Source: Deuterostichococcus epilithicus
Lineage: Eukaryota > Chlorophyta > Trebouxiophyceae > Prasiolales > Stichococcaceae
Direction: 5' to 3'
Assembly (NCBI GenBank): GCA_033439295.1
Contig: JAVTLE010000016.1
Span: 496,001-560,000, forward strand
Length of the DNA stretch: 64,000 nucleotides
Shown here: piece after piece, positions 16,176 through 62,500 of the stretch
Position numbering within the stretch: the first letter of the stretch is position 1
Layout of the letters: each line of letters starts with the position of its first letter
Program-made: the position numbers and the translations under genes
Notes under the pieces: model-generated
What the model was told of the DNA's origin: nothing
Seen by the model: the letters and a program-made list of their open reading frames with translations, nothing else
Database searches by the model: none

Positions 16176-19100
16176 TCACATGGGGCGCGCGCTGTCGTCA
16201 TAGGAGTGGCGGCGCGGCCGCTCGCCGCCGCCAGGCGGGGCCTCCGCGGCACGCCGCCGCGCGTCCGCCGCCGCCCGCCGCGCCAGGTCGATGGACTTGC
16301 GGGGGCGCGACTGCGGCTGCGGCGCCTGCAGGTCGCGGGTCTGAACCGTCATGTTGAGATAGCGGTCTCACTTCAGCTGACAGATCGCCGACCATGCTCG
16401 CGAGGACTGCTGGCACAGCCTGCTCACATTGTCATCTGGTTGACTTTGCAGGCTGGATTGCGCCTCCTGCAAAGAGAGACTGCAAAGCAGAGAATATCTT
16501 ATGGAAGATGCCCAGAAACACCGCACCTCGGCTGCGGCGGCAGCGACCATGGCATCGTAGTAGGGACGGCAGACCTGCACATTAAGGCCCACCAGGGCCT
16601 CCAGGCCCGCGGCCAATTCTCCCGTATCATCCGCGACGAGCTCCGCACCAATGGAGCGCAGCACCGCTGTCGCCTCCGCCGGGCTCTGCGGGAGGGAACA
16701 CAGAGGGCTCAACCTGACACGGGGTCATTGGCTTGCTCGCCTCTGCAGGGAGCAGCCTCCGGGCCGACGGAGTGCAGCACTTTTGTCGAACCCGCCTGGC
16801 TCTACTGGGGGAAACACAGATGGACGTGGCGTCATTGACATGCCATGCTTTGCAGGGAGCAGCCTCCGCGCGCCGATGGAGCACAATGAATGGCACAGGC
16901 CTTCATCATCAGCAGCCCACCGCGCCGCTGTGCAATGGGGACGGACACTGGGTGTGATGAGGAGTACAGGCATTGAGTAAAGCAACGTTTAGCTTCTCCA
17001 GCAGCAGCAGGCGCAGAGCAGCGTTCAAATCGCGCTGCACCTTCCGGTACACCGAGCGGGAGACCACATGAAGCGAAAGGACACGAACAGATGCACACCT
17101 TCTCCAGCAGCAGCAGGCGCAGGGCGGCAACCACGCCGCGCTGCACCTTCTGGTACACCGGGTCGTCGGTGCTGAAGATGCGCGCCAGCAGCCGGCCCAC
17201 CAGCTCCCGGTCGCCGCCGCCGCCGCCGGGGCCGCCCGGCAACGCCGTTGTTGCCGCGCAGCGTGCCTGCGTGTGGACACAGCCACGTTCGTTCGGCCGG
17301 CAAGGGGTGGGAATGCAGGCTGGCTGCCGCTGCCAGAGCCGCCCTGGCTGTCTTCGCCGCTGCCGTTGCCGCTCAGCACGTCTGCGGCGGGGGCAGCGTT
17401 TTCGGGGTTTAGGGTTGGGTTGTCCAGGTACCATGATCTGGTTGTTGGGGCTCGGAGCGTCTGCCAAGGCACGCCCGGCAGAATGAACGTTGTTGATTGA
17501 TGAGAGCAGGTGGCCAGTCTCCGAGACACAGAACATGTTCAACGAGCGGGTTGCTCTCTGCAGCACGGCCCCATCACCGCACTGACCTTGGGCCGGCGGG
17601 TCAGCAACCGCATCTAAAGCCAGAGCATCTCGAAAGCCCAGAGCTGTCAAATGTGCCAATGCAGCATGGCAGTACCGCTAAACCAGCAAGAAGTACCGGA
17701 CCAGCGAGGACCCGCGAGATCTGAAGACCGCACCTGCAGCAGGGCGTCGAGCTCGGCGACAAGGACGGGCATGCTGACGTCCGGCTCCGCCAGCAGCGCA
17801 CTGAAGCGGTCCCGCACTGCGCCATAGAACCTGGTGCAAGGAATCCGACAGCAGTTCAACATCTTGGCACACATCCTGGGGCAGAGCGCCGGGTGCCTTG
17901 CGGTTGGCATACAGAAAATACGGTCTTCGGCTCCGCGGCCCTGGCAGCCCCACGACTGGGTGCGCCGAACGTTACTGGCGTTGACAATGTGGGCACATGC
18001 GGCATCATGCTTGGCTGCGATCCTCCAAAGAGCTTGTGCCCGGAGGCGGGTGCTTCACAGCCAGCAAACGTGCAACTTGCATGCGAGCAGCGTACCCAAG
18101 AGACCTTGCAAGGTGGGCCTGATGTGACACAGAGGTCCCCCCCACCTGCGGTTTTCCGGCGAGCTGGTCCCCGGCGGCAGGCGCTTCATGGCCAGCAGCT
18201 GCGCGGCGATCAGCAGCGCCGCGGCCACCAGGCTCAGCCGCTGCAGCTCGTTCTGCGCCGCCACCAGGCGCCCCCGATCCAGCAGCAGAGTCTCGGGGCA
18301 CTCTGCCTCGCCCACTGCCACCGGCAACTGCGGTTTTGTGCCACAGCAGTGTTTGATCATTTGCATGATCTGCGTGAAACCCGGTGTAGGTGTGGAAGAT
18401 TTTGTTGCTGAGCGCCGCCGCCAAGGCGGCCCCCGTCCATCAGCAGTGTCTGCGGGCCTCGACCACCGCCACCAGCAGCTGTGCATTCCGTGCCAAGTAA
18501 GCTCATTTTCAAGGCTCAGAGACATTCCATCTGCTCGAGGCACTTCTGCCTGTGGGTCGATCTGTTTCCAATCCATCCGTCGACGTTTTGCTGGAGGAGG
18601 CTCCTGACTGTAAACAAAATGTGCGGCGCATGCTCACCTGCAGGAGCTGTAGCACGCCTTCGACGACCGCATCGAACACGATCTGCGCGCCGCTGCAGTG
18701 CTCCAGCAGCACATCCTCCTGCGAAGGGGTGCCACCATTTTATGAGTCAGCATCGGTGTCTGCAGCACCAGCACGAGGGTTGCGATGATGCCATTGTCGT
18801 GATAGCCGCGCCACTCATTCAGCTCTGTTTGTACACCAGCTGCCGCAGGCTGCCAAATGCGGCATGCGGCAGCCTCAGAACGGTGTTGGATGCTTGCTGA
18901 TGCTGGAGTGCGAGTCGGCAGGCCATGCAGCTGGAGAAGCGAGTTGACGTGGCGGCATGGCCGCCACAGTTGCAGGCCCTCTGTTCAGGGGGGGCACCGT
19001 CTGGAACACGTTGCGCATCCAGGCGGCGGTTTTGGGCAGCGCCGCCAGGGGATCGGACCCCGGGGGGATGGCACGCTCGAAGCGCCGCCGCTCGTACTGC

Positions 19101-22100: not shown

Positions 22101-25100
22101 CGGAGCGGGCGGGCGCCTCAAGGCTGGCCACCACGTGCGTCAGGAAGTCGAACAGCTGGCGCAGGTACGCCGGGTCGTACCCCGCTTCCAGCCGCTGCGC
22201 CACGTAGCTCTGCGGTGGCGGGTCCACACCGGCTTGAGACCTGGAGTCGGGCCGCTCGAAGCATGCACACCAGTAAGCTGCACCGCCCGGGAGAAGATCC
22301 CTGGTGCACTGCCAACATGATCAGGCAGCGCAGAAACGAACCCAAAGACCTTTCAAGGGAACGCTAAAACCCGAGACCTCATGCCCACCGTCTCCAGCTT
22401 GTTGTGCAGCTCGATGCGCAGCGCATGCGCCACAGGGTGGCGCCTGGCGGCATTCCTTTCGTGAAAAAAGTGACTAAAACTGCGGACACTAACCGTCTCC
22501 AGCTTGTCGTGCAGCTCGATGCGCAGCGCAGCTGCCGCGGGGCTGGCGGCCGGCGGTACCAGCTCCGCGAGCTGCTCCCGGGCGTCGGTGACCAGCGCCG
22601 CTAGCCGCCGCCAGACGGGGGGCGCCTCCGAAAGGCCCTCCGACAGCACGTCCCAGAACGCACGCTCCGCCACCGCGCGCAGCTGCGCACGCGAGCGCCC
22701 AGGGGTTAGGTTAGAGTGTGAACATGCATTGCGCCGACTGTTGCGACCACTCTTGCATCGCTGTGTGGCGCTCCGCCGCGCGGCAGCCACGCCGCTGCAG
22801 GTCCGGCAGAGGATGCGGCAGGGGACGATGTGTGCTTTTTACCACCCTGCCAAAAGGTCGAGCCTTTTCAAGGTTGAGAGCAACAGCGTTTAGAGCTTAG
22901 AGCACCGCGCACCTCCGCCAGCGGGTGGCCGTCGGGTGGGCCGTGCACCTTGGTGCTGGCCCCCTCCGTGCCGCCCGCCTGCCCTGCGGGCACAGCCTCG
23001 TCGCCGCCGTCGCGCAGGTCGGACGCCCTGATGGGCTCCTTGCCTGCGGGGCCAGCAGCCGGAGTTAGGGGTGTGACTGCGGCGGGCCCTCCCGGCTCAG
23101 CAGGGCATCACCAGGCCTCAGAGGCTGCAGGAGCTGTGGCAGGCCACGTGAGAGCCAAGAATCTGGGCCGGGCCGCTCATGTATGCCATGCGCGGCCTTG
23201 TGCCGGCGTCAAGCACGACATCGACGACCAGTCATCAGGTCACGCATGCATCACATTCGGGCAAGCGCTCATTGGAGGGCATTGACCTCCGCAAGGAGAG
23301 AAACGCACTCTGCAGCAGCAGCTCGTGCACCACGTAGTCGCGCTCGTCTATCTCGTACAGGGTGGCCGTGCCGCCAGGCGTCTTGGGCTTCTGGCCCTTG
23401 CCGTTGCTGCGCCGGGAGCGCTCTGTGTCCGCAGAGCTGCGCCGCCCCGCCTCGGCCCACGGCAGCGCGTCGACAGCCGCNGCGGCCGCCGCGGCCGCCT
23501 GGACAAGAGCGAAGGGCAGCCTCGTCGCATGCTCGGCGCTTGGTAAAGCATGCCCGCAACGGTCGTGTCGCACGTCACTCGCCAGATCTTGCGGATGCGA
23601 GTCTGGCCAACCTGCGGCACCTGGCTGTTGCGTCCGGCTCACCGGAGCATGCCTGTCCTTTTCAACACCATGCTTCTCGGGACAGGGCCCGAGTTCGGTG
23701 CACAGCAGCGAGGAAGGTTTGCCATCATTTGTGGTTCACACCTCGGTCGATGTGCGGTCCGCGGCAAGGTCCTCAGACTGACGCTCCTCAAGCCCTGCCG
23801 ACACCCACGCCGCTGTGTCCGAATCGCGCGCCGTCTTTGGCGCCGCCGGCACCTCCCGCTCGCTCCTGCAACACAGCTTTTGCAGTATTCAGGAGAACTG
23901 CGCACCGGCGCAAGCACTGCGACGCTGCTCACGGCCGGCCCGCACGGGGTTCTGGAGAAGTGCGAACATCCAGGGCAATGCCGCTGGACCAGAAGTGACG
24001 GCCAGCCCAGCGCAGACTCGCCTGTCGCTGTCGCGGCTGATGCGCTGCATGGCGGCCTCAGAGCCGTCAGTGCTCCGCCGTCGCGCCGCCGAGCGCACGG
24101 AGCCGCCGCCGCTGCCTGGACCGCCGCCGCCGCCGCCGCTGGCATGCTGAAACTGTTCCCGCCCTGCAGCTTCTGCCTTCGCGGCCTCCGAGGCTGTCCG
24201 CGGCAGCGTGGCGCCGCCAGTGGACAGCCACCCATAACTGGACAGCTGTGCGACCTCGCCGCGCCGGTGCTCGTCGCTCGTCTGACGCTGGTGCGCCGTC
24301 GCGCCGCTCGCGGGATCCGCCAGCGCGGCAAATGCCTCGGCTGCGCTGCGTTCGGCGGAGCGGTCCAGCCGCTGCGCGGGCACTTTGGCCCCCACAGGCT
24401 TCGGCGCCACAGCCTGTGCGTCCCAGCCCCACTCCTGCCGCTGCGGCGGCGGCGGCGGCGGCGGCTGCTGCAGCTGGGCTCCGGAGCCCTGCCTGTGCAG
24501 CGCTGCGTCGCTGCAGGGCGGCCGCCGCTCCGACACCGACGGTAGCGAGCCCGGCTGCTGTGGAAACTGCGTCGACATGCGGTGGCTGATCTGCGACAGC
24601 ACCTCCTCCGTGGAGTTTGCCGCATGCGCCGTGCTGGGCACCCCGAGGCTCTCCGCCAGGCTGCTAGCGCTGGACAGCATGCTGCCCTCCTGGCCGCCGG
24701 TTCGTGCCGGCATATCGCTGCCTGTGGAAGGGATCCGGTCGTGCGTGCCGGCGCGCGCCAGCGGGAGCGGGTCAGAGACGGAACCGCCACTGCCGCCGCC
24801 AGGCTGGCTGTCAGCTGCCACGGAAGTCGCAGGCGCCGCCGACCCTGCTTCATCGTCCGCCGCTAGAGCCGGCTGCGAATGCAGCGGCCTGGGGTCCAGC
24901 CCTGGGTCGCCGTCTGGGTCTGCTGCGTCCGCACCCGACACCGCCGGCTGTGGGATGGCTCCCTGTGGCACGCGCTCGAAGAGCTGCTCGGCATCGCTGC
25001 AATCGTCGGTAAGGGCCTGCGGCGCAGTACGACAAGCTGGTTGCTGCCCACGTTGACACGGAGTGCACAGATGCAGAGCCACTGAAGACGTGCAGTGAGC

Positions 25101-25836: not shown

Positions 25837-28800
25837 ATGGCCGCGACCACGACGGCCGCAGTTTTGCCGCAGTTCCGACACCCCTGGCGGCGAGTCATGT
25901 CCTTTACCACCCGTGGCGGCGACCCCACCACGCGGTTGGCATGCGGCTGCCGCGTTCGCCGGCCAGCACTGCCAGCCGGCATCGTCAGGGCTGCAGCCGC
26001 GGAAACAGACGCCGGCAACAGCACCCTGGTGGGCGACTCGGCAGCAGGTGCAGCGGGTGAGGATGAGGCCCCGAAACGCAGGGGCCGCCCCAAGAAGGCG
26101 GACACCGCATCAACTGCCGATGAAGATGGCCAGACCGCCGCGCCGAAGACGCGGGGCCGCAAGAAGCAGGAGCCCGTTGCTGAGGCGGATGACGGCGGCG
26201 CGGAGGCGACACCCAAGCAGAAAGGCCGCAAGAAGAAGGTCAAGGAGGCTGAAGCGGGCGGCATCAACAACCTGAAGCTGGCCTTTGACAAGGAGCAGCC
26301 CAAGGAGCAGATGGTGAGCTGCTACCCCTGGCGACAAGTTCTTGCGCTGCCCCACTGCGCTGAAGAGACCTGGCTTCTGGAGGGTTTACGTCCGAGCTCG
26401 GATCGCTGTTGGAGGCGCAGGTTTCCTGAAGCTTTCTACAGGAGCTCTCCTAAGAGCGCATCCAGCAGAATCGCGTCATGACATCGGGTTGCCATCAAAA
26501 GTATCCGCTCTGACTAGAGCCATCTGGAACCCGCAGGAGGAACTGGAATTGTACGAGGCGGAGCGGGAGGCCGAGCGCGTCAGCCGCTCTGCACAAGCGG
26601 CGGCAGGCCGGCGGACACGCGGCCCCAGCGGCGCAGTCCCCATCGACAGCGCCGTCGCGCACCGCCTGGCCGAGCGGAAGCGCATGGAATCAGCCTGCCT
26701 GCCTGTTGATGAGGACGGGTGCGCTGCCCTGCCTCGCGGCTCGGCACTGGGCCATCTCACACTGACTTGAGGTCGTAGCTTTACATCAGCATCCGCTGAG
26801 AAGCTCCCATTGGCGAACGGGGGTTCGGACGATGGAGTGCTTGCCTGCAGGGTGGAGACGGTTGAGCGGGGTGCGCTGGGCGACGGCAAGATGCGCTGGT
26901 ATGCCCTCAGGGTGAGTTGCCGATCCCTTTGGAACTGCCTGTTTGACATGGCAGCCTCATACAGGCTCTCATGACAAGCGCTCAGTCACAGCTGCAAGGC
27001 TGCATGACCCCAAACGACGAGCCGGTGTGAGCCTGCACTGCGCAATCGAACCAGCAGCCCGCATTTGCAAGACATGGTTTGTTACGAGTTCCTTGAGCCT
27101 TGAAGCCATCAGGCTGGAGTGGGCTATGGAGGTCATGTCACCACCATCGGTGTATGGCGGCTTAAAAAAATGCGCGCTGGCCTGTGTGATGAAGTCGGCG
27201 TTCTGACAGCCCTCAGAAACTCATATCCAGCAACCCTGCTCCAGCCTCAATTCGGCACCGAACTCTCCCTCAGGTCAACCACAACAAGGAGGCAAAGACG
27301 GGGTTGGAGGTGGAGGCATCAATCGCGAAGCTTCCGTCGCTGCCGGACCCTGTGACCGGGGAGCTGCGGCCGCGCGCTGTCGAGACGTGGGCGCCGTCCA
27401 AGCGCATCCGGACCTTCAGCATGAGGTGCACCCCTGTCTCCCACAGCTGTGTCGAAACGGTGGCTGCACAATGGGTGTAATGTGACTGCCGCTCCTGCTC
27501 CCGCAGCCTTGCTGTGCCTCAGCGTGACCTCGCCTCCCAGTGGCGTGTCCGGTGCCATACTGGTCATGCTTAGGCGCACTAGCAGACGCCAGAATTATGT
27601 GGCGGGACCACGAAGACGGTTCGCTGGGTCGTGGTCGGCATGCAGCTGCTGCCGCTGCTGCCGCTGCACCGTTGTGACTTACTTCGATCCACCTGTCGCC
27701 ACGTCATTCCAGGACCAAGAATTAGGCTGCCCGAACGGTGCGCTGGAGCGGCGGCGGCAAGCTGCTGCTGTGCTGCGAATCTCATTCTCCCAACCGCATC
27801 TTGTTTACCATGCAACCACAGGACCAAGAAGATGGGGTCCAAGACGGTGCGCTGGCGCGACGGCGGCCAGCTGCTGCTGCGCTGCGTCATGGACGAGGAG
27901 GTTTTCAACCTCCTCACGGAGCAGGTGTACAACGTGCGCAGCTTCGTCGACAGCCTGACGCTCGACGCCCGCGATGGCGCCAAGGTCGGTTCCGCTGCCG
28001 CACTCGACATCGCTCGTGCACAGCGTCAAGGGCGTGCGCCGGTGCTCCTGAAGTTGAGGACCCATGCGACCAGCTTTGTTGGAACCCGTGTCCATGCGAG
28101 CTGAGACTACTGCAGGCCCAGGGTCGGCAGCGATGTGGCCTGGCAATCCAACTCGCGTGTGGCTTTTTGACAACAGGAGCAGTTTCCCATGCCGGTGGAC
28201 GATGATGTTATCGCGGGCGTGCACGACTGGCTGGCGCTCAACGAGGACGAGGTGCGATTCCTAATGTCTCACAAAATAAAAAATATTTCTGGAAGTTTGA
28301 GCCACATGGAGTGCAGATACAACTGCACATCCGGACCGACTCACAGCGGCGCCGCCACTGAAATGCGCGTGCGCTGGTGGAAAGCATGCCGCATGCTGCA
28401 TGGGCGCAGACGGCTGTCTAGGGCTGCCGGCTGGCCGTGCCGCACGCTTCCTGCGGCACCCTGATTGCCACGATGCGCAATCGAACAAAGTCCTTCACGG
28501 CCCTGAGCATGATGTGACGAGCTCTCGATAAGCTCTCCGGCTCCCAACAACGCAGACTGAGCGGGATGTGCGACTGGACCTGGAGGGACCCGACGGGCCG
28601 AGCGCCGCCCCGGTGCGCTTTTCAGATCAAGGTTCAAGAATGCTCATTTGCTGCCGCCTCCTCCTGCTGCTGGTGCATTGCTCGCCTGGCAGCACGCAAT
28701 CTTCTCTGGGCGCCGTGGCTGCTGGGCGCTGTGGTGTCTCACAAGCGCAGCAGCGCTGGTGCGGCGGGCTCCAGGCAGCTGCACGAGGGCGCCAGCCGGA

Positions 28801-31800
28801 TGCGCGTGTGTGTGCACACGCGTGCCTCAACGGCATGTGCAGCTCGCCGCCTAGCGCACGCATAGCGCTGAGGACTCTTGATCCTGAGCGGCTGACTAGG
28901 GGTGCCAGCCAGCGACCGCCTGCAATTGCGTGTTGTCAACCCTCAACCCTATTCAACCCTAAGCCCCATGCAGGCGCCCGTGGATGAGGAGGTGTACCGG
29001 CGCGGCAAGCAGGGGCGGCAGCCTGGCGGCTACGAGGCAGACGACCTCATGTGAGGGTCCTTGTCTGAAGTTTGTCTGAATCCCTGTCGTTGCGCGTTGT
29101 GCGCGGTGCACACCCAGCGCTCGCCGGACTTCCCGGCATGCAAGCCGCTGCACCCACCCGTCCCTGAGCGCTTGCTGTGCAATCCTCATGCTGCTGCAGT
29201 CGCCTCTGACATGGACATGACTCCTGGACATGATCACTGCCCTTTGAGCGCTTCTGACTCATCAGCACTCCACGATGCCGCAGGGGCACATTTGAGAACC
29301 CCAGCGGCTGGTATGAGCCGGGTGGGTCCGGCGCCAGTGGCGCACAGCCGGCGGCCGCCGCCGCGCCCGCTGCCGCGCCGGCGGCCGCCGCCGGCCCCTG
29401 GGGCGGCTGGGCGCCAGCGGCAGCGNTGCCGATCAGCAGGGCCCCGCCGCCGCGGCCGCCGCCGGCGATCAGGCGGCCTCCGCCACAGACGCGGCGCCAG
29501 CGGTGCAGTTTTCGGACGAGGCAGCGGACGGCGCGCTGTTCTTGAACGCCAAGGGCTCATGGTCCGGCAAAGGGGAGTTGCCGGACGGCGCACTCGCAGC
29601 TGCCGGTGCGGAGGCGGGCGGTGGCGAGGCGGCAGAGGAAGGCGAGGAAGGTGGGGAAGGAGAGGACCTGGAGGAGGCCCTGGAGCCGCTGGCCGTCGAG
29701 GGGGACCTTATCCAGGACGACCCAGACGAGGACGATTACAGCATACTATTGCAGGTAAGTGCGGTCATAGGACCACAGGTCAGCTGCACCACAAACGACC
29801 TCAATCTTTCAACGTCGGAGTCAAACGGCTGGGCGGAGTCGAGCCGCAGCCCTGGGCCTGCGAATGGGCGATGGCAGACGCAAAAATTCTCCACACGCAG
29901 GCGGCGCTCAACCTGCAGCTCGCCACTGTCAGTGTGATGGCACACTGTCAGTGTGGGAGCCGGTTGGATGTTGCCGTCAACAACTGCTGGTCGTTTAAAT
30001 CCCCTCTGAATTCTCTCCCTGCAGGAGGAGGGCGACCTCGCAGATGACCATGACGGCGGCAGCCTGCCGAAGGGCCGCATCCAGCACCTGCCCCGCAACC
30101 CGCGTGTGGTGGACCCCTTCGAAGTCAGGCAGGCCCCTGCAGAGGCTGTGCTTCTTGCTGGCCATCCCTTGTTGCTGTGCTGCCCGCCAACATGTGCACC
30201 GGCTGTGACGAGCAAACCCCTGATGTGGATGAATGAAGTGGGTATCCAGGAGCGAAGGGGGGCCAATCGAGGCTGGGTCGAGCCAGCCCCGCTGAGGCCG
30301 CCCTCCCTACGCTGTGTGCAGGCGCCGGCGCGACGATGACGGCGGCCGCGGCGGCGGCCGCGGCCGCGGCCGTGGGCGCGGTGGCCACGGCGGCGACGAG
30401 GAGCTGAGCATCTTCGAACGGGGGCGGCGGGCGGCGGGGACGCGGCCCGTCTATGGCACCTTCTCCATGGGCGAGATGGTGGACTGGAGCTCCGACAAGT
30501 CCCGCAGGTAGGCAGTGCCTCTCTCCGAGGAGTGCATCAGCACTTTCATGGAAACAACGCGGCGATTCAGTTGCGCAACCAATCCTGTGAAAGCATTGCA
30601 CCTTCTGAGCTGACGAGGCTGAGGACTGCAGCCCTGACAAGTCTGTAGGTGGGCAGAACAGCTCTTCAGCGCTGCCAATCACGGCTCGATTAACAGCAAT
30701 TGCCGGACCACTGACGCATGCTGTACCTGCGCAGCCTCGCGCAGCGCATGGTTGCCGAGCAGGACGCGCTCGCCAGCCAGGCGTTGAATGCGTCCGTGTC
30801 TGGAGCCTCCTTCCCTGCGGCCGCCGACTTTTCCGCTGAACAGCCGTACCAGCCGCCGTCGCCGCAGCCGGAGTGGAACACCGCCGGCGCCGGCGGCGCC
30901 TGGAAAACTGCCGGGAGCGGCAGCGGCGGCGGCAGGCGCGGCGACCGCGGCGACAGCGGCGACAGCCGAGGATACGGCGGTGGTCGCGGCGACAGCCGAG
31001 GACGCAGAAGCGACCTCGGTTGGGACACCGCCGGAAGCGGCAGCAGCTACGGCGGCAGGGGCGGCGACCGCGGCGGCCGCGGCGGGCAGCGGGACCGCGC
31101 GCAGCGCGTCGGCAGCGGCGGTGGGTATTTTTCCACTGAACTGGCGGACCGGGCGGCCGGCGGCTGGGATGAGGTGCAGGGATGGGGCGCCGCGCCCGCC
31201 GGCGCCGGCCGCGGCGAGGCCAGCCAGTCGTGGGAGGAGCAGCCCAAGTGGGGCTGGGGCGACCAGCAGCGGTCCCTGGACTCTGGCGGCGGCGACCGCC
31301 GCGGCGGCGACCGTTTTGGCGATGATCACGGCAGCAGCCGAGGAAATGGCAACAACCGCGGCGGCAGGGGCTTCGATAGCGGCGGGCGCGGTGGGCGCGA
31401 CGGCCGCCGCTTCAGCGACGGCTTCGGCAACCGGCAGCAGCAGCGNGGCGGCCGCGGGCGGCCGCGGGACGACGACGCAGATTTCACCGCCTCGGAGCGA
31501 CCCAACGACTGGTTCGAGCCGGGCAGGAGCAGCAGCGACGGTGGCGGCACCGCCTGGGACGCCGCCCCTGATGCCGGCGCCGGCAGCGGATTGCCGCCTG
31601 CCCAGCCATCCTCCGGCAGCGGCAGCGCTTGGGGCGACGCCGGGGACGTCGCCTCCGGCTGGGGCGGTTTTGGCGGCGCGGAGCTGCAGCAGGAGGGCCG
31701 CCGCGGCGGCGGTCTGAGCGGCACCTTCGGTTGGTTTGCCGACCCGGCGCTGCCCGATGCCAGCGGCGTCGCATCAGCGGCGCCAGCAACCCCGCAGCCG

Positions 31801-32369: not shown

Positions 32370-32503
32370 ACTCCTTGCGTTGACACCTACTGGGCCGTTG
32401 ATTGCTGCAAATCTTCACGAATGCAACGTGCATGGTTGGCTGTATCTTGCTTTTATCAAGGCCGCCAGGTTCAACAAGCAGTTGTGTAGGTGCCCCGTTC
32501 AGC

Positions 32504-32508
32504 TGTAA
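32504..32508 (+). terminator. TGTAA polyadenylation signal of the NusG-like gene
   Basis: TGTAA 135 nt after the stop codon at 32369, the expected place for a chlorophyte poly(A) signal. There is no competing copy closer to the stop. Confidence 0.5.
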
Positions 32509-49800: not shown

Positions 49801-52800
49801 AGTGCCCTGGCAACGTCCTGGCATGCCACTGGCGCTGTGTCGCTCACTGAGCCAGCCGGCCGATCTCATTGCTCAGCTGACGACAACACACGAATTTGCT
49901 GTTGTAGGCCGCAGGGTGTTGACAGACAGCGTGCTGACAAATCGGCCTTGTGTCATGTGGAAACCAATCTCATGTGGAAGCCAATCTCATGTGGAAACCA
50001 ACCCCATGTGGGTTCAACGAAGCTTCTCACGCCCAGCAGCCGACTCCCATCAGGTGCGCAGACGCCCTGTCCGAGGCCGGGCGGAACGGGCACGCAAAAG
50101 AGCTGGTCGGCCAATTGGTGGATCAGCTACCTCGTCCGCCAAGTCACAAGCTTGTTTGGTGGTGACTGTGCTCTGTGCCGCGCAGCTGACCACCATCATG
50201 GGGGCTGAGCCACTGTCGGAGGCCGAGCGCGCCGCAAAAGCCGCGCTGTTCGGCCAGCTCGTGGAGCAGCTGCCCGCGCTGCTGGTGCTGCGGGGAAGCC
50301 GGGGCCTGGGCCCGGTGGCGGACGCGCTCGCAGCGGTTCGCCGGCTGGCGGCAGGGCGCCGCGCGACGCACCAGAACCTGTTCAGGTGGGCCGTCGAGCG
50401 TTTCCAAGTTTCTGTCGATAAAATGTCTCATATGATGTGAAAACAGAGCACGACCTGCCTCTTTGGGCGCGCTGCTGCGCCAGCTGCAAGCTGCAAGCTG
50501 CAGGCACGCTGCCACGAGAATTGGCGCCCATGCACTGCTGTCTGTGCACGCTGCATCAAAAATAACGCAGTCACTGAGCCTGGGACGCGATGCCAGCGCA
50601 CCAGCAGGGTTTCAAGTCGCCTCATATGTCAGACGATACAGATACGAGCGACCTTGTCGTCAGATTCTGGTCACAACCTCGTGCTGCTCTGGGCGTTTGA
50701 AAGCTTCGCCTGCTCTGCCGCCGCAGGCGCGCCGGCGCGCTGGTGCAGGTGGTCAACCTGCTGAACGACGAGTTTGGGCCGGAGGAGGGGGCCGAACTGG
50801 CATGCAGCGTGCTGCTCACCCTGGCAGCGCTGCTGGCGGGCAATGACTCTGCCCGCAAGTGCCTGGCGCACGACGTCGGTGCGTCCGTCTGCTTTGCGCC
50901 AAAACGCTGTCGATGTGTCCTTGCAAAGCTGAGGCGGCACCAGCAGCTCAAGTACGTGCTCAGGAGGTGTGCAGTCGGGAAGCTATCATTTCATGACCTG
51001 CTGTGCCTCGCTACTGGCGGGAAATGACTCCGCGCACAAGCGTCCGGCGCACCTCCTTGGTGCGTCCATGGAACAGCGAATCTTTGCGGTCCAGCAAACC
51101 CTCCTTTCTGAGGGCAGTGATAATGTTCAGGGGCGCCTCGAGTCGCTGTCCGCTTGCTGCATGCCACTTCCAGCGGCAACCGCATGCTGGGTCGCAACCA
51201 ATCCAAAACAGTCAATGTGATCATGACGGCGTCAGGCTGCATGCGGCACCTCACGGCAACTCTCAAGCTTCCCGCTCGGTGCAGGCGCCGACACGCTGCT
51301 GGCGCTGGTGCTGCGGCTGTCGCCCGGTGGGCACCCTGGGCGGCCGCTGCTCACCGCCATCCTTGCGCTAGCGCTGGAGGTGGGCGCTCATCACTCTCAG
51401 CGTGTCAGGGTGTCAAAGCTGGGGACGCTTCCGACCTGCAAACGACTTCCAGCAGACTGGGAGCTGCGACAGGGTCGACAGCCTCGCACATGGCTTGCGG
51501 CGCAGGCGCAGGGCACTCTGTTGGAGCTTGATGCGCTGCAAATGCAGCCACGGGTGCTAGTCGGCGAATGTGACCCTCACCATCAATTGCTTATTGTGTA
51601 CATTGAGAATGTTCACGATGATCTAGAGTCGGCAGCGGGTTGGCCGGACAGAAGTCGACATCATACGAGGCTGGTGCCAGCGCTCCTTACTGGCTGCTCC
51701 AAAGCGGTTCAGCAGATGATGTGAACCACTCGCCTCATGTTGCGGTCGGACTCCCAGCTGGTCAGCCCTGCGACAGCCGCCTTGCTGAGATGTGACTGGC
51801 CATGTGCTCGCCGGTATGACCGCAGCTGTCACCTGATTATCAAGACCAGAAAGAACAATAAATATCCCAGGTCTGGAACCCGTTGCGCCCAAGGGTTCAG
51901 TACACTCGTGTCGGCAGGAGGAGCACGACCCAGACGCGGAGCCGCCGCAGTCGGTGGCCAATGCCGACGCGGTGCCGCTGTTCCTGGCGGCGCTGCGCGC
52001 GGCGGCCGCGGCAGAGCGGCGGTGGGGCCTGGCGCTGTGGGCGCGCCTGCTGAGGGGCAGCATGGTCAACCTGTCTGCCTGCGAGCGGTGCTTTTCTTTC
52101 TTTCTGAGTACATGCAGGCTCTGACTCTTGTGGCGCTGCCGCGTCTCTCCTTGCTGCCTGACATGCATGCCTGGCTGGGGCCGCAACTTGAGCTCAACTT
52201 GCAGCCGAGCTAGCTGCACCGCGAAGGAAGCGCCTTCCGAGGTCTTGACCCACTCACTCGATCCACAGAGTCAATTGTGTCAGTGGATTTGCTTTGCAGG
52301 TCAGGCGTCAACGGGCTGCTTATCGACTGGTTCGCTGGCTCCGCTGACGATCCGGCCCTGCAGGCGCAGATCGCCGAGCTGCTGCAGGTGTGCACGACTG
52401 CAGCTTCTTAGCATTTGCAACCAGGATGACCACGACAGGCGCATGCCTGGATCGCAGGACATGTCGTGCAGACAGGTTCGCACCCTGCAGCGGGACTGCG
52501 GGCTGCCAGCATGTGAAGGGCACTGCTTGTACCTTTCGGGGCTTTCCAGCCGGAGGCTGGTGCATGTTCTCTGCCTTCGATTTCATGCTCTATGCTCGGC
52601 ACCTGGTGATATACCTGCCTCAAGTCGAGACTTGAAAATCGGACAGCACCAGATGCCAATCACAGAGAACGACGACCAAGGCCGAGCGCAGCTGCCATCT
52701 CGTGCCCCGCACACGGCCACTAAAATGAACCAGGCATCGACGCTCGTGCACCTTTTGGCAGGTCACCGGCGCGTACAGCATCGCTGGCCGGGACCTGAGA

Positions 52801-53554: not shown

Positions 53555-53593
<39 letters not shown>

Positions 53594-56500
53594 CGCCTTG
53601 GAGCACGACCGGGCGCTGTACACGCTGCTGATGCGAGGGCCCGCCGGCGCCAAGGGCGTCTCCGCTGCGCTCCGAGGTACAGCATTGTTGATCGGAGGAT
53701 GAGTTCTCACCGAAATATGTGGACGTGACGCTGGCATAGCATGACACGGCATGGCATGGCATGCATTGCCATGCCATGCCACGCCATGCCAGCTTGCAAG
53801 TCTCGTCCGTGGCGCCGCAGGCAGCCAGTTGGTGATGCGGACGCTGGGCGGCGGCAAGGGCCCGGCCGTGTCGGAGGTCGCGCTGCCGTTCGACTTCGCG
53901 CCGCGGCGGTGGTACCATGTGGTGGCAGCGCACGCGCCGGGCGGGCCACTGTCGGCGCCCGTCGCGACGCTCTTTGTGGACGGGGCGCTGGCGGCGGTCG
54001 TGGAGCGGCTGCGCTATCCAAAGGTCAGCACTACCTGTCATCGACACTGCTTGTCGTGAACAAGAGCGGCCTGTATAACAGCACTTGAGATCACAGGATT
54101 GTTCTGAAGGAAGCATGCGACTATTGCACACCCCAATGACAGCTGGACGCACCAGAACAGTGATGCTGGCTGTGTGCCAACTACAGCTCTGCCACAGCAT
54201 ATGCCAGCAAGTGTTCTGCAGACTGGCGCGGCGCGTTGAGTGCATTGTCTGTCAGCAACTTGCAACACTGGGGCTCAACATCTTCAATTCCTATGCGCTA
54301 TTGGCACGGTGCAGCCTGGCCTCACCTGCAGCCAGCTGTAAATGCTGGTGCATGGACTTTGTGCAACCTTCGTCAGGCGCAGGACCACATTTCGCACAGT
54401 CACTGTGTGGCCCCCTGCAGTACTGCTGCGGGCTGTTGTGCAGCATGCGGGTGCCAGGGTCGCGCGATTGTCTTCTGTGTGCCGCCTGTGCATGGAGGGT
54501 GGAAGTGGCATCTTGTCTCCGGTCCCTCTTCGGCCTAGGCTCAGGAGAAATATGGACAGAACTAAGGAGGCCATGCTCGACGTCCAATGTCGTGATGCAG
54601 CCTCACAGGGTATCAGAGGGGCAGGCATTCGGCAGGCTGATAACAATAGGAATGTTTGCCTCAACGAACCAGCTGCCTAGCCAAACCCGACTGTGTTTCT
54701 CTGTTGAAGGTGCCGGAGGGGCTCAACGCGTGCAGCTTTGCGGCGGCGCTGAGCCGCGACGAGGCGGGCGGAGGCGCGCCCCTGGCTGCCTTCCGCGGGC
54801 AGATGGCGGCAATCTACCTCTTTGACACCGCCCTGACACCAGGCGAGTGCCCCGGACTTCGACCGATGTCGGTACCGAGCAAACATCGCAGCAGATGTTC
54901 GTTTGCCAAAGTGTCTGGCGGCACAGATGGCAGCCATCTACCTGTTCAGCACCGCGCTAATGCTGGGCAAGTCCCTCCGACATGGCCTGCAGTCAACATC
55001 GAGCAAAAGGCGTCCAAAGTACATGACGCACCATGAATCGTCCGGGATGCTTGCCAAGCTCTGCAGAATGCGGCAGGGCTCTCGCTCATGTGAGGCAACC
55101 TCCGCCTGGCTGTGTTGCAATGCATCGCAGTTCGTGTCACAAGATGCAGAGCAAGCTGCCGCGCTGCTCAGCCGTGGGACCGGACTACCAGTCCACCTTC
55201 TTTGCTGCGAAGTCCCACCTGAGCGCCTACCGAATAGTGGCAAACAAGCTCGCTTGTGTTGCCTTTCTCTTGAAGAGCAAGCGGCGGCGCTGCACGCTCT
55301 GGGGCCGGACTACCAGTCCACCTTTTCGGTGGCGGAGTCGTCGGCGGTGCTGGAGCAGGCCGGTGGCGCGGCGGCTGTGGTCATGGAAGGCCGTGAGGCG
55401 CTGGGGCCCCGCCTGCTGGCCGCCTACAATGCGCAGGCGAGTGGCCGTCAACGGCAGGCCTCGTGAGCGCTGGTCAACCCTGCCAGCCACAACAGATGCT
55501 GCTGGGCTGTACCTGCCTACACCTGGTCAGCCACTGCTGGATGGCGTGTTCAGTTCATCTGGAGCTCCGCGCAAGCACAGCCTCAGGATCTGACCTGCCA
55601 GGTCCGATCGCAAGTTGCGGCGATGCTTTGTCAACACCAGTGGCGTGTCGATGCGCAGGCCGCAGCGGGGCGGGCGCTGTACGACACGGCTGCCATGGAC
55701 CAGTCGGCCGTAGCCGGCGGCGATGCCGGCGGCAGCGCCGGAGCTGCCCTGCTGGAGCACACCCAGGTGCCCTGATGGGAGCTGTAGGACTCTTGACGCC
55801 TCCACGCATGCATGTGGGTCTCGCGATGAAACCGGCCACCCACTGGGCACGCATGCGGGTAGCAAAGACACATGCAAGGCAGCTGCCCGCAGACTGACCA
55901 CAGTACACAACCATGTTTTGCTTTGCACGTGGCAGCCTGCTTGCATGCAGATCCTCCGACGCTGTACGGCAATTTGAAACGGTTCCTGTCTGCGCAGCTA
56001 TGCCACGCGGTGGCGCTGCGCGCGCTGCTGCCGTGCCTTGGCGGCGTGCGTGCGCTGCTGCCTCTGGCGGCGCAGCTGGACCTGCCTGTTGCCGGGTGCC
56101 CCCCGAGCTCGCATATGTCCTGCATGAGCTTCAGCAGGACCTGAAATACGGAACGTACACGTGCATCTGGCTGGCTGCGGGCCGGCTGTGCTTGGCGATG
56201 CCAGCTTGCTGAAACGGGCGCTGCGACCACCAGGCTCGCGCACAATCCCAAGAATTTCTCTGCCGTGCACAGTGTCGGCCGGCCGGCCAGCTCGAGCTCG
56301 CAATTCCTGGCGACACCACTGTGTTTCGCTGTACCGCAAGACGACCCGGCCATGAGGGTGATGCCTATCATGCGCTCCTGGTGACCTGCTAGGCAGACGA
56401 ATGGCGGTGACGAGTCAAGGGCGCCGGCGGTGGTGGCGCTGCTGGCGGCGGTGCTGGAGGGTTCACCCACCAACCGCCAGACCTTTATGCAGCTCCAGGG

Positions 56501-59500
56501 TGCGGCCTTTGTTGCAACACGGACGGTTCTCGGCACAAGCGTGGCATGTTGCTCACTGGAGACAGATCCAAGATTGATGGTTGCAAGCGTCGGAACAAAA
56601 AACGGTAGATCTTGCATGTCATCCTCGGAGCAGAGAACAATAGAGCTTGCATGTCAGTGGAGTGTAGTCTTGCGCTCAAGAGCCGGAGCACTTGGAAGTG
56701 AAGCTCCCCGTCACAGAGTCGGGGGAAGTGTGCAGCATGCTTATGAACTCTGCGCTGCAGGCTCGGCCATGCGGAGGTGCTGCTGCAGTGCCATATGTTA
56801 GACCACAGATCTGCTAAGGCGACAATTGACGGTTGTGAAACTCCAAACGATGGCTGTGCCGCAGGCCAGGCGCTGTTGGGGTGGCTGCTGCAGCAGCGAC
56901 AGCAGCAGTAGCAGCTTCGCTGCCCGACAGTGGAGCTGCTCCACTTGCTAGTGTGACAGTGCCAAGTCTTCAATGACATACCCGCAGGTCCAGCGATGCT
57001 TGAACGGCCGCTGCGTAACGACTACCGCCACCACCTGACCACGGAGCCGCTCAGGGCTGGGCCGCCAAAACATCGCACCTCATGCTTGGTGACATCTCCG
57101 TGCAGGTCCAGCGATGCTGGGGTGGCTGCTACAGCAGCGGCAGGCGCGCCACCTGACCATGGAGCTGCTCAAGGCTGTGGAGGGTTTGCTGCGCGCCACC
57201 GCCGCCGATCCTACCCTGCAGCGAGAGGTGCGTCACGATGCACCTCCCATGCATTTCGATGCTGGCAAGCCGTTGTGTTCATGGAACTTCAACATTGCCA
57301 GGTAGACTATCTGCTGCATTTCACCGCCACTGGCCCCGCCTGCAGCGGAAGGTGCGCAATGAAACCTTCAGCTGGGTGCACTGTGCCGCCAGGCCGCCAG
57401 AAATACTGCAAAGGCGGTCTTCCAGGCTCGAGGGCTGCAGGGCCAATAACAGTAGGCTGGGATTTGCTCGACCTCTGAAGTGTTGCAGACGTCCTGAAGA
57501 AATTCGGGCCTTTCATTGCAATGGGTTCTCGGTGAAGCCGCAAGCGATAGTGCTCCATTCTGTGCGGCAGGTGCTGACGACGCTGCTGCTGGATGTGCGG
57601 CTGTGGGCGGCAGCGCCTGTGGCGGTGCAGCACAACTTGTTCGCCCTGTGCCTCAAGCTGGCCCAGGTGAGCCCAAGGGTTTGACTGCCAATGCACAGGC
57701 CCGAATTCAGTACTCCGAATATCATGTGAGAACACAGCGAGGATCCAGACCAACGGCATGCATAGTACGAGCATGCATCCTGGCAGATGTGGCCGACGTC
57801 CATCACCATGGACTGTGGGTGTCGGGCACCGAGTGCCCCCCACAAAGAATGGTGTAGTGTCGCGACGATGGCGAGGATGCATGAGCTAGTCTTCTCGTGT
57901 CCCATTCAAACGCCAGATCGATGCTCTTTCGCAAAGTTGAACTGGTTCAAAGGCGCAGGGGGAGCCGCCGCTGATGCAGCAGCTATGGCATGTTGCGCAA
58001 ACCGGATCTGTATGGGCACGCACAATGCATCCGCAAGCCCAGCTACCAAGGCGCTGCTTGTCCTGATGCGCAGCGGAAGCCGCAGCTGATACATCAGCTC
58101 TTTGGCGTGGCCATGCAGTCCCAATGTATCCGGTTGCTGCCGTGGCCTAGCCAAGACTTTGGTGTGCAGGGCGAGCCGGAGCTTATGCAGCAGCTGTTTG
58201 GCGTGCCACGGGTGCTGGACGCACTGAGGGCGCACTTTGGCGCCGAGGCATCGCCCGACGCTGTGTCACCTGCGGCAGGTGCGCCGGTTGTCTGCTACTG
58301 CGGTCCTCTCATGCTGGTCACAGCACACTACCTGTTGTCCGACGTCAAGCGCACACCCCTACAGCTTGATCCATGCTGCAGGCTCGTTGATATGCTGGCT
58401 TGCAGCCTCCAAAGGAGCTGATTTGGAAGCAGCTGGCATTGCTGTTTCCGACTGCTCAAATCGTACTCGTTATGATGTGCAGGACTACTGGGTGGTTCCT
58501 CAAAGATTCCCTACTTTCATTCTACGATGGATATTTCTTTCCTATTTTTCATCGCGTGCAGGACTACAGGGATGTTTTCTCAGAATTTCCCGCCGTGATG
58601 CTGAGAATGATACCTGGCGTCTGCCATCTGCCACAGTAGTCCTGCAATACCCCCGGGGATGCACCGAGAACGCCCCCGGGGTCATAGGGGCCGACACAAG
58701 TCCGTGGTGGGGGCGTTAGCCTGCTCTGCTGTGCACCAATGCCCTGCCGTGAACCTGGCAGTAATCGGACACTTGTCCGAATCGATTGCGTGTTCCTACA
58801 GGCGGCAGGCGATGTCAAGATATCTGCGGGAGCTGCGCTTCAGGCTGCTAAGCCATCATTTCCATCGTGTCAACTCTGGAGAACTAGGAACGCTTTGTTG
58901 CAGGCGGCAAGGCGACGCCAGACGAGCTGGGAAGCACACCGTCCGACCCAAGCAGAATTGTACATGGTCCATCTGGTCTGCACGTCGTCATTGAGGGTGT
59001 TGTCCCGTGTCGCAGGTGGCAAGGCGACGCCGGAGGAGCTGCGAAGCACACTGTCCGACCCATGCTGACTGCTACTTTTTCATGTATCATTCGGTCTACA
59101 TGTTGTCACTGACTTGTTGTTCCATGTTGCAGGCGGCAAGGCAAAACCGGAGGAGCTGCGGGAGCTGCGTTTCGACCTGCTGGAGGCGGCGGCGGCGCTG
59201 GTGCACGCCGCTGCGGCGCCGCCGCCGCACACGGCATCAGGAGACGGCGGTGAGGACGGCTCCCGGGGCCGTGCCGCGGCACACCACCTCACCGCGGCCG
59301 TGCAGGTGTGTTCCATATTTACAACAAGATACCAAAAATAACCAAGGAAGAGTATTTGCTGCCCGGCCTGCGTCTCGCAGCATCACACTGCTGAAACGTA
59401 TGATTCCCACAGAGCGCTGTCTTGGTCTGCGCCACCAGCCCTGGTGGGTGCCGCATGTCATCGGAGCTTCGAACGGCATGGCTCCACAGCCCATCCATTT

Positions 59501-62500
59501 AACGAACAGATCCCCTACTCCTGCTGCCTCGAGGCCAAGCATCCCATACTATGTGGTGGCGTCAGCTGCAGCTGAGGTGGCTGACGCACTACTGCCACAG
59601 CATTGTAATGGCTGAAATCGGCACGGGTCAGCAGGCTGGCATTGATCGTCGGCCTGAAATCTTGACGTGTGGAATGTGTCCCCACGATCGAAAGCACTTG
59701 ATGTGTGTGCCGCAAACCAGCCCTGGCACTGGCATCGCTCATCGCAGCCTGCCCCGACGCCTTGCCCGCCAGCGTCGCCGCCGCCGGCTGCCACTTCTTC
59801 CGGCCCATCCCTGCAGCTCTCCACATGCGAGGCTGTCAGCACTGAGCATGATGCGCCTTTCATGCCTTTCATGCCTTTCATGCCTTTCTTGCATTTCATG
59901 CCATTTTTGCCTTTCATGCCTTTCTTGCCTTTCTTGCCTTCCAGGCACTCGCGTCCTTCGTCGAGGACTGCCCGGACGCTTTGCTAACGGAGGACGCCGT
60001 CGCCTGCCTAGCGGGCCTGCTGCCGCCGGCGGAGGCCGCGTCCCGGCCGGTCANGNGCGCGCTCGCACGGCTGGGGGGCTGGGCCTCGTGTCGCCGCTGC
60101 TGCGGCGGCCGCGGCAGGCGCTGCGCGTCGCCGGCCTGCGCATCCTGGCGGCGCTGCTGCCGCTTGTGCGCGACGCGCAAGGTGGGCGAGGGTCGCGCGC
60201 CACTACAGCGCATTTCCAAATTCGTGCGGAGGCCTGGGCATCATCCAAATTACATGGCATCATGTGCCAGATTCAGCATCGGGTGGCAGCAGAGCAGTCG
60301 GGCAGTGGCACACCGCAAGCAGATGTACCTGCTGCTCCAAGGTAGGGCAAGAAAGTACCTCCTGTGACGCCGCAGCGCCGGGGGGCGGTAGGGCGGGGCG
60401 CAGGCGAGGCGCTGCTGCCGGTCCCGCTGTCGGAGCCGCGTGCTCTGTGCCCTGACCTGCAAGCATGCTATAAAGGTGCAGTACATGACGTGCTCCCCGT
60501 GCCGCCGCAGAGCTGGAGGGTTTCTGGGCGGAGGCCAGCGAGGCGCTGCTGCTATTCCCACTAACGGAGCCGGTGCGACGTGCGCTGCTGCAGCTCATGC
60601 ACACGACGTCACCAGCAAGCCATGGCCCGGTGCGTCACATGCAAGGACGGAGCTTCACCTCCGTCAGCTGGTGGCCGGCTGCAGAGTCTCGCTCGTGTGG
60701 ACTGGTACACTCGGTCTTCAATAAGCCTCACGGTCGTCCCAGCAGCCGCAGCCTCTGGCGGCGGTGCTGCCACTGCACATGCTGCGCCGAGCGCCCATCA
60801 GCATTTGGCATGGTCAAATCGCTGGCCGAGCTCACGGCCAGCGCGCTCAAAGGAGGGCCCGATGTCACTATGTATATCAGTCTAGCCTGAGCAGCTGTCT
60901 TGCATCCCGTCCCTCGGCCTCTCCAGGGGCGGCATGCCGAAGTGTTGCCAAACGACATGGGCCCCTCGACGAATTGGGCCGCTCTGACAAGGGCCAAACG
61001 TCGTGACGCAGGTCAGCTGCTCAACGCTGGCCCGCTTTATGCACATAGTGACATTTGGCCCCCCTGCCAGTGCGCTGTCCGTAAGCTCGGCCAGCCACTT
61101 GGTCATGCCGAATCCTGAGGAGAGCTCGTCAGCACCGGGCGCCGCTGCCATGGCGAAGGCCTGCACAAGGATGACACAACGGCTGAACCCCCGCAGTCGG
61201 CTGAATGAAGGCGCCGGAGCAGGCGTGACTCAGTAACCAGGATACCACGGGGTCTTCATCCCATTCATGTTCCAGCACTCGCTCCTCTGCAAGCTCAGCT
61301 GTCCGTGCTCACGCTTCCACGGCCGCGCCTGCGCAGGCCGCAGCCCCCGGCGGCGGCGCCCACGCCGCGGCGCTGCTGCTGCAGCTGCTGCGCGGCTGCG
61401 AGGACGCGGGCGAGCGGGCCGCGGCGCTGCAGGGGCTGGTGGCCGGCCTGGTGGAGGGGCCGCGGCCCGCGCGGGCGGCCTTTGCGGCGCTGCCTGGCTG
61501 GGAGGAGCTGCTGCTGGGGCTGCTGCTCGATGGCACGCCCGGCGTCGGCCTGCAGCCGCAGGTGCGGGCTGCTTCTAGCTGCCACGCAGATGGATGTTGC
61601 AAGCACATGCGGCGGTGCCAAGCTGCGGGGAGTATCAAAGGGTCGTGCGCCGGTGTGCCGCTGCAGGCAGTGCATACACCGATCTTGCAGCTGCTGACTT
61701 CTGCACGCCAAGCTGTCGAGGGGCGTGGCAGTTCTCAAGGCGGCGCAGTCTGCCACATGACACGCAATTACAGTATGCGAGTGTCTTCCTGGCACGTATC
61801 TGGGAAGCAGAAGCTGCCACGCCGCCAGCTGCAGTCGCAGAGCGTTTCAGCGCCTTGACAGCTCGGCGTGAATGCGTCAATGGTTTCCAAATACATGCAT
61901 GATAGGGTCGCACCTGCTCTGCTGCGCTTTACAAGCCAGGCTTTTGGCTCTTGGTTTGCTGGAAGTCGCAATGCGCCTGCACGCCTGTACACTCGAGACC
62001 CAGATTGGGTAGAACCATATGCCGTCCGTGAGGGAAACCGCAATCTAAGGTGCCATAATGCATGCGACACCGGGAGATCCCGCACTGCAGCCAGGAGCAC
62101 ACTGCAGTACTGCGGTCTCAGGCGCCCTACAGTGCACACCCTGCACAATGCTGCCGTGCAGTCCGTGCTTGCTTGACAAGAATGTCATTTACCACGTTCA
62201 GCCTTGGGCCTCATCAAAGCTGTTCCTTGGGAGCTTGCTGCTCGGCTTGCTTGGCAGAATTTCCACAGTTCGCTCAAGGTTCCAGAAACACAGCTTTCAC
62301 GTCTGCAGATTGAGGCGGCGAAGGGTTGTCAAACGTGGCGGGGGGCCCAGCGATGGTCTTAAACATGCAGCACCACGGCTGCTGCGTGTAGCGGCGGTGC
62401 ACTGCATCCTTTATAGGCGTGAGACTGAGCTGCGGGCTCTCCTGGTCACAGACCGAGGCCTCGGAGGCCGGCTGGGCGTGGCGGGGCCCGGAGATGGGCG

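Follow-up and report, generated by a model that had tools for sequence, protein, structure and literature searches.

In rice, tandem duplications make up a declining share of insertions longer than 125 bp, down to 5% at 200 bp. The same study (PMC7971508) ascribes short tandem duplications in plants to repair rather than slippage, citing work on patch-mediated or adjacent-nick repair (Vaughn and Bennetzen 2014; Schiml et al. 2016). In human and mouse cells, fill-in at 3' overhangs by CST-guided Pol alpha-primase yields small tandem duplications (PMC8355091). In Daphnia and Drosophila, imprecise repair of breaks has been suggested as a source of direct repeats at splice sites (PMC2809761).

In the green alga Deuterostichococcus epilithicus, many introns hold worn copies of the edge of a neighbouring exon, both in a 64,000-nt stretch of the genome (the window) and in 16 other loci. 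Like the plant duplications (PMC7971508), these are direct tandem copies, placed head to tail at short offset, and they have an upper size limit near 125–200 bp. In contrast to the plant case, they cluster at ~80–160 bp with few shorter ones, are of old date, and are recognised by their mark at splice junctions. Mutations of this class are known; here their sizes span a narrow range and splicing bears their mark. An earlier account of the window (the sequence-only reading) had matched the pattern to no described system, which was overstated, as PMC7971508 already describes short tandem duplication in rice.

The CST/Pol alpha-primase system resembles the present case as a worked-out route to small tandem duplications at breaks, and differs in that it operates in human and mouse cells (PMC8355091). 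Tandem duplication within genes, including a case in potato, is alike in that splice signals descend from the exon-intron structure of the parent; for potato, an 83-bp tandem duplication within an intron is reported as well. It differs in that existing introns grow here, and new introns were not detected. The Daphnia and Drosophila repeats flank new introns, unlike those described here, and for the six additional cases in Drosophila the stated repeat length is 8 bp or more (PMC2809761). The available sections of the Auxenochlorella genome paper (PMC12636532) are silent on such copies. No described case of decayed exon-edge arrays in introns was found among titles and abstract openings, in a coverage that leaves out most subscription journals.

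Exon-edge copies in the window and in other loci

Gene models were made with a home-made gene finder in the window and in the 16 other loci. Their exons are predictions, and some tiny modelled exons inside arrays are probably wrong; modelled introns of at least 90 nt were counted. The edge scan compared 50-nt exon edges with the adjacent intron only, without a limit on distance, and a functional exon at one end of each array is built into this design.

At a score of at least 13.5, 14 of the 111 modelled introns in the window contained a copied edge of a neighbouring exon (15 edges in all; Table 1). The same was found for 21 of 274 modelled introns in the other loci. The copies that the sequence-only reading had reported in four genes are therefore real, and the pattern extends beyond the genes it named. 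In total, 37 edges were copied in 35 of 385 introns, which provides a readable fossil record of intron lengthening in about one in eleven modelled introns.

At a score of at least 14, 11 of 358 donor edges and 22 of 354 acceptor edges matched their own adjacent intron. In contrast, the same edges matched randomly drawn introns, which were cut or repeated to equal length and could include the own intron, in 0 of 2148 donor and 1 of 2124 acceptor comparisons (together 1 of 4272). At the opposite edges of these exons there were no matches (0 of 262 donors and 0 of 270 acceptors). Comparison of the window with itself (score of at least 16, offsets 20–599, simple repeats counted in) yielded 46 ungapped near-repeats, versus 0 in each of five local shuffles. 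Chance and base composition were ruled out as the source of the copies by the shuffles, the far offsets and the mismatched introns. An assembly artefact, with duplicated identical sequence, is unlikely because the copies were mostly 10–35% diverged.

Most gene names proposed earlier were upheld by Pfam matches: Tcp11 for the TCP11-like gene, S41/PDZ for ctpA, and a single Neurobeachin-region match for the BEACH-family gene. The piece called NusG-like, however, had no Pfam match. Exons for a BEACH domain occur on the strand of the BEACH-family gene, 8.5–11.7 kb beyond the window end, and may belong to this gene. The ctpA exon start listed in Table 1 sits in a stretch that aligns unbroken to the photosystem II D1 protease 1fc6, and the model aligns poorly to 1fc6 at about query 330–375.

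Table 1. Introns of the window with copies of adjoining exon edges (window coordinates; offsets in bp).
Feature	Intron	Strand	Copies and offsets
TCP11-like intron, both edges copied	16686..17098	-	donor copy about 16993-17054, offset 106; acceptor copy about 16704-16881, offset about 110-116
Donor-edge copy	17831..18145	-	copy 18015-18057 of exon end 18146-18188, offset 131
Acceptor-edge copy	18328..18637	-	copy 18412-18495, offset about 151-154
Donor-edge copy, among best kept	22210..22493	-	copy 22387-22450 of 22492-22556, offset 105
Two acceptor-side copies	27426..27821	+	near 27613-27652 (offset 228), 27735-27777 (offset 109)
Donor-edge copy	30508..30734	+	copy 30614-30665, offset about 142
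ctpA intron, two acceptor-edge copies; exon start protein-supported	37613..37970	-	offsets about 108 and 205
Acceptor-edge copy	47676..48712	+	copy 48580-48639 of 48711-48770, offset 131
Acceptor-edge copy	49451..50185	+	copy 50031-50125, offset about 145
Donor-edge copy, donor GTGCGTCC kept	50879..51284	+	copy 51009-51067 of 50828-50886, offset 181
Donor-edge copy, GC donor kept	54843..55171	+	copy 54936-55007, offset 124
Two acceptor-edge copies	56500..57105	+	56861-56902 (offset about 241), 56974-57059 (offset about 117)
Two acceptor-edge copies	57667..58169	+	near 57942-57984 (offset about 211), 58064-58113 (offset about 96)
Acceptor-edge copies before exon 59133	58279..59132	+	near 58801 (by eye), 58896-58956, 59008-59043

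Spacing of the copies

The copied edges of the window had offsets of 96, 105, 106, 108, 109, 116, 117, 124, 131, 131, 142, 146, 151, 181 and 241 bp. The range of 96–151 bp given in the sequence-only reading thus holds for 13 of the 15 edges and fails for those at 181 and 241 bp. Across all loci, 33 of 37 edges were found at 82–159 bp, in support of its suggestion of a repeated process, with a unit near 115 bp. The remaining edges were at 181, 223, 235 and 241 bp, the last three corresponding to about two units, and none was nearer. In a first scan, 10 of the 16 other loci had a pair at 80–159 bp. An independent, masked scan of 264 kb (score of at least 25) gave 5, 9, 19, 10, 6 and 0 pairs in successive 20-bp bins covering offsets of 60–180 bp, with 0–2 pairs per bin at offsets from 400 bp up, counts that include five satellite-like array pairs in locus L027 and two intergenic pairs in locus L022.

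The offset had a mean of 116 bp and an s.d. of 19 (38 pairs), versus an s.d. of 23 for spacer length, and the exon share ranged from 21 to 113 nt. Exon share was correlated with offset (0.36, p = 0.025, 38 pairs) and negatively with spacer length (−0.63). The steadier offset would be consistent with units of fixed size placed at varying positions across the junction. Offsets were evenly distributed modulo 3 (11, 13 and 13 of the 37 edges, counted by hand), and hence there is no frame filter.

The arrays are probably the remains of ordinary tandem duplications of ~115 bp that straddled splice junctions. About 115 bp (mostly 80–160 bp) would be duplicated in direct orientation, at positions unselected for splice sites. 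Where the duplication straddled a donor or acceptor, the outermost site would be spliced, and the duplication would be tolerated because the mRNA stayed as before. The exon fragment left inside would, together with its splice site, turn intronic and then drift, and later duplications within arrays would add further copies. Exon edges would stand out because selection holds one of the two copies, the functional exon, which changes slowly; the copied intron part and intron-internal duplications would fade sooner than the copied edge. We infer that the whole unit was duplicated in the two-copy cases. The repair step may be, for example, a staggered break from two nearby nicks that is filled in and joined, as proposed for plants. 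That the sizes span so narrow a range suggests a single repair route in which breaks have a defined geometry; meiotic double cuts as the origin of the unit size are a thought only. Duplication across splice junctions, decay of the redundant part, stepwise growth of introns and leftover splice sites had all been proposed before and are supported by our results, so that the earlier interpretation stands in part.

Intron part of the duplicated units

Spacer homology was clear in two arrays (58896–59160 in the window and 8951–9249 in locus L018; z about 8) and reached z 3.0–3.4 in four further arrays of the 37. In intron 58279..59132, one copy-to-copy unit was homologous along its full length. In 24 of the 37 arrays, homology on the intron side did not exceed z 1.5, and in 17 of the 27 edge pairs scoring at least 25 the alignment covered less than 0.8 of the offset. 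Among 13 pairs with an exon-part identity of at least 0.8, intron-side similarity extended over at most 12 nt in 10 pairs, two of which sit within the exon, short of the junction. Simulations of plain duplication, which rest on assumed rates, predicted a share of such pairs of 13% at equal rates, 34–54% at spacer rates 1.8–2.5 times higher, and 68% at 3.5 times. Similarity thus ends at the junction more sharply than the simulations expect.

Both the brief intron-side similarity of these well-kept pairs and the 24 arrays lacking homology there would be expected if a junction-tied process inserted 35–75 nt of exon edge plus splice site into the intron, without an intron part. Such exon-edge-specific copying would also agree with pairs of copies that are both intronic, where the exon-like side was better kept in 6 of 8 (mean excess over shuffles 0.12 versus 0.018). 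However, the offset varies less than the spacer, the spacer shrinks with a larger exon share, and spacer homology exceeds z 3 in six arrays, all of which make this process unlikely. It is also disfavoured in that no mechanism known to us recognises splice sites at the DNA level. About as unlikely is a splicing- or exon-linked process that copies edges up to the junction in ~115-bp steps, without the intron part, whereby splice architecture would guide intron growth. As far as examined, the earlier suggestion that exon edges are specially copied was unsupported, the offset being the steadier quantity.

There was little to indicate a cDNA source: a spliced junction was crossed in 4 of 2126 comparisons, by stretches of at most 15 nt before the junction that contain CAG or AG.

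Intron-internal pairs numbered 2, versus 22 coding-to-intron pairs. The predicted ratio was 0.18 with faster intron decay and 0.51 at equal rates, and the scarcity of intron-internal pairs is below, yet compatible with, the former. Intron sites of a paralogous gene pair differed at 12.7% in surroundings of 40–50% GC and at 6.7% in 60–70% GC, whereas the lowest GC bin ran contrary (3.9%, 51 sites); this rate difference comes from one pair with mosaic divergence.

Introner-like mobile elements and intron birth by tandem duplication both predict duplicated sequence at splice sites, but are extremely unlikely here. When the 37 spacers were compared with the 264-kb sample, they matched themselves and, weakly, about a dozen other stretches, the best of these with 70.8% identity over 72 nt (E 2e-4), and no sequence shared by many introns was found. 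The signature of intron birth occurred in 0 of 123 introns of 50–200 nt (60% identity over 32 nt, at which old births would escape).

Decay of the copies and surviving splice sites

Identity inside the matches was 89.1, 88.4 and 80.0% at codon positions 1, 2 and 3, respectively, and these values gave no sign of coding constraint on the copies (37 pairs). The greater change at position 3 is consistent with drift of the copy and constraint on the exon next to it, and the copies look neutrally decayed. Recent copies were nearly missing, with one pair of at least 0.93 identity over at least 28 nt at offsets of 40–400. Between the two copies of a duplicated gene at 1–13 kb, gaps of at least 15 bp included none of 60–160 bp in well-aligned sequence; one 81-bp gap was found in a poorly aligned end.

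Mismatches were patchy (mean z 1.7, s.e. 0.5, 35 pairs), which gene conversion could cause. The arrays would then be old tandem duplications in which short conversion tracts from the functional exon refreshed the exon-edge copies, giving exon parts a younger appearance than spacers. Copy 16993–17054, for example, is identical at 24 of 24 nt beside the junction, followed by a poor stretch and then 23 of 24. Yet patchiness may be inflated by alignment ends, the codon-position pattern agrees with simple drift, and two copies in intron 58279..59132 share differences from the exon, which renders this explanation distinctly improbable.

Several observations count against short tandem duplication as the origin: the sharp edges at junctions, the lack of intron-side homology above z 1.5 in 24 of 37 arrays, the better-kept exon-like side in pairs of intronic copies, the near absence of recent copies and the patchy mismatches. 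The same applies to the rate evidence from one pair with a contrary GC bin and to the weak correlation (0.36) of offset with exon share.

Splice dinucleotides were retained at 22 of the 37 copies, comprising AG at 17 of 25 acceptor copies and GT or GC at 5 of 12 donor copies, and lost at 15. In the window, the sequence-only reading that copies nearly always keep a splice site was correct for acceptors (AG in 9 of 9) and less so for donors (GT or GC in 3 of 6). Predicted decoy sites survive: 40% of acceptor and 50% of donor copies scored above the 10th percentile of real sites, versus 6.4 and 5% of random intron positions. Scores in the real range would suit copies that act as alternative exon edges or regulatory decoys under selection. 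In contrast, the lost dinucleotides, the nearly equal decay of codon positions 1 and 2 with less than twofold more at position 3, and the lack of preference for offsets in multiples of 3 make such functions very unlikely. Tandem duplications across junctions can leave spare splice sites, and introns of this kind may mislead gene predictors into calling false exons.

Presence and spacing of exon-edge copies

Exon and intron models were computed from sequence alone, using a gene finder built for this analysis and applied to the window and to 16 sample loci (L009-L024) at fixed positions on 16 contigs. The genome comprises 46.8 Mb in 21 contigs, of which 264 kb were scanned for repeats, and the GC content of the window is ~62%. 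The modelled genes are intron-dense, with a median intron of 243 nt and a median exon of 128 nt. GC-AG introns were common, with a GC start in 47 of the 406 introns of the window and the 16 loci. Residues 34-426 of the predicted ctpA product align to the photosystem II D1 protease 1fc6, which makes a photosynthetic lifestyle probable. All simulations were run with assumed rates.

The sequence-only reading had described decayed copies of adjoining exon edges in introns of four genes, and these copies were recovered. Comparing the window with itself yielded 46 near-repeats with offsets of no more than 599 bp, against none in each of five shuffles. For the 385 introns that were 90 nt or longer, 33 of 712 50-nt exon edges matched the adjacent intron at a score of at least 14, versus 1 of 4272 for randomly drawn introns and 0 of 532 for the far edges of the same exons. 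At a score of at least 13.5, matches occurred in 35 of the 385 introns, comprising 14 of the 111 window introns and 21 of the 274 from other loci. Because these 21 introns came from 9 of the 16 other loci, the pattern is not peculiar to the four named genes. Four later loci (L025-L028) contributed none of the 38 edge pairs.

With distance unrestricted in the search, 33 of 37 edge copies lay at 82-159 bp from the real edge, four at 181-241 bp, and none closer than 82 bp. In a separate masked scan covering 264 kb, pairs scoring at least 25 were most numerous at 100-120 bp (19 pairs). The 20-bp bins starting at 60, 80, 120 and 140 bp held 5, 9, 10 and 6 pairs, the 160-180 bp bin none, the following three 2, 1 and 5, and bins from 400 bp upward 0-2. 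Intergenic sequence accounted for seven pairs between 60 and 160 bp, of which five came from a single satellite-like array in L027. In simulations with fast spacers, detection was 0.10 for offsets of 20-40 bp and climbed to 0.41 for 160-180 bp. Hence, poor detection does not explain the drop beyond 160 bp; it may partly explain the scarcity of pairs at 20-60 bp.

Features of the window and of sample loci (positions without a locus name refer to the window)
Location	Feature	Details
58896-59160	array	spacer and exon part clearly homologous, z 8.4
L018 8951-9249	array	spacer and exon part clearly homologous, z 8.0
16594-16881	alignment longer than full unit	spacer z 3.1
37587-37825	alignment longer than full unit	spacer z 2.3
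L019 7219-7439	alignment longer than full unit	spacer z 1.0
L018 ~6936-6963	perfect 11-bp inverted repeat, 6-nt loop	at border of exon-edge copy and spacer; seen by eye
L027 8295-8936	satellite-like tandem array	period ~74 bp; modelled as intergenic
49953-50011	minisatellite in modelled intron	17-bp units
59855-59940	minisatellite in modelled intron	9-bp units; stops a few bases short of modelled acceptor
960-5759 and 8309-13125	tandemly duplicated gene	minus strand; copies 91% identical
~13118-13546	428-bp insertion	in one copy only of the duplicated gene

Extent of the probable duplication

The simplest reading is plain tandem duplication followed by unequal decay of the exon part and the spacer, i.e. 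the intron part between copy and real edge. Both parts were clearly homologous in two arrays, and three alignments exceeded the full unit at just 0.67-0.74 identity (see table). Spacer homology reached z 3.0-3.4 in four further arrays of 37 and remained below 1.5 in 24. In most two-copy arrays, similarity ended near the junction. Of 27 edge pairs with a score of at least 25, 17 aligned over less than 0.8 of their offset; the 10th percentile of this fraction in simulated plain duplications was 0.72. Among the 13 pairs with an exon-part identity of at least 0.8 and an exon part below 0.75 of the offset, 10 had an intron-side similarity of at most 12 nt, two of them with the match inside the exon. 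By our own count, this applied to 18 of 38 pairs overall. The corresponding share in simulated plain duplications was 0.13 at equal rates; it was 0.34-0.45, 0.54 and 0.68 when spacers changed 1.8, 2.5 and 3.5 times faster, respectively.

Copying bounded by the splice junction, without the intron part, would be the alternative. It is favoured by the copy-to-copy pairs, where the exon-like side was better kept in six of eight though both copies are intronic; beside the arrays with clearly homologous spacers, we consider it unlikely. For plain duplication, faster spacer decay through a GC-linked rate difference has some support from the duplicated gene, where intron sites differed by 12.7% in surroundings of 40-50% GC and by 6.7% at 60-70% GC, with a contrary bin of 3.9% at 30-40% GC (51 sites).

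Position, fate and age of the copies

Units landing at random would frequently strike splice junctions. One copy of the exon share of a junction-straddling unit would stay under selection, and both copies of an intron-internal duplication would drift. Use of the outermost splice site would restore the mRNA; since the mRNA must be kept, the functional exon would form the end of the array. In simulation, interior pairs were 0.51 times as frequent as edge pairs at equal rates, and 0.18 times when spacers evolved fast. Pairs scoring at least 25 comprised 2 non-coding intron-internal versus 22 coding-to-intron pairs, besides 13 mixed, 7 intergenic and 2 coding-coding pairs.

Identity within matches was 89.1, 88.4 and 80.0% at codon positions 1, 2 and 3 (37 pairs), as would be expected if the copy drifts freely and the exon next to it changes mainly at third positions. 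Of 25 acceptor copies, 17 retained AG; of 12 donor copies, 5 retained GT or GC. Taking the best of five registers throughout, 40% of acceptor and 50% of donor copies scored in the range of real sites, versus 6.4% and 5% of random intron positions. Offsets modulo 3, counted by hand for 37 edges, split 11, 13 and 13. Given this codon pattern, site retention and modulo-3 split, the copies look like leftovers carrying latent splice sites.

An intron-birth signature was found in 0 of 123 introns of 50-200 nt, a shared spacer family was absent from the 264-kb sample, where spacers had roughly a dozen weak matches, and 2126 comparisons revealed no spliced-junction copy requiring a cDNA source. Exon-part identity reached at most 0.90 in the 38 pairs, and a single pair overall reached 0.93 over at least 28 nt. 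Across the window and L009-L028, recent tandem duplicates were almost absent at offsets of 40-400 bp and decayed ones common. A steady process should yield younger copies, because simulation with uniform ages and equal rates gave 433 of 2457 detected edge pairs with an exon-part identity of at least 0.9. A slowdown of the process or the removal of young copies could account for their scarcity.

Known tandem duplications and the duplicated gene

In rice, more insertions stem from tandem duplication than from any other source; such duplications are overrepresented at 50-200 bp, and the fraction of insertions they make up drops past 125 bp, reaching 5% by 200 bp (PMC7971508). Small tandem duplications also arise when CST and Pol alpha-primase fill in 3' overhangs (PMC8355091). 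Intron gain via tandem duplication is known as well, one example being a potato gene with an additional 83-bp duplication within an intron (PMC4974935). The D. epilithicus arrays belong with this class of mutation. No counterpart of their narrow size, density and splice-junction imprint came up among the titles and abstracts searched.

Matches of the duplicated gene to glycosyl hydrolase families 5 and 42 fall short of the curated cut-offs. Its intron divergence is 4.5-26% before ~3.4 kb and then abruptly 1.4-2.4%, as if part had been converted or duplicated later. The 428-bp insertion may be a small mobile element.
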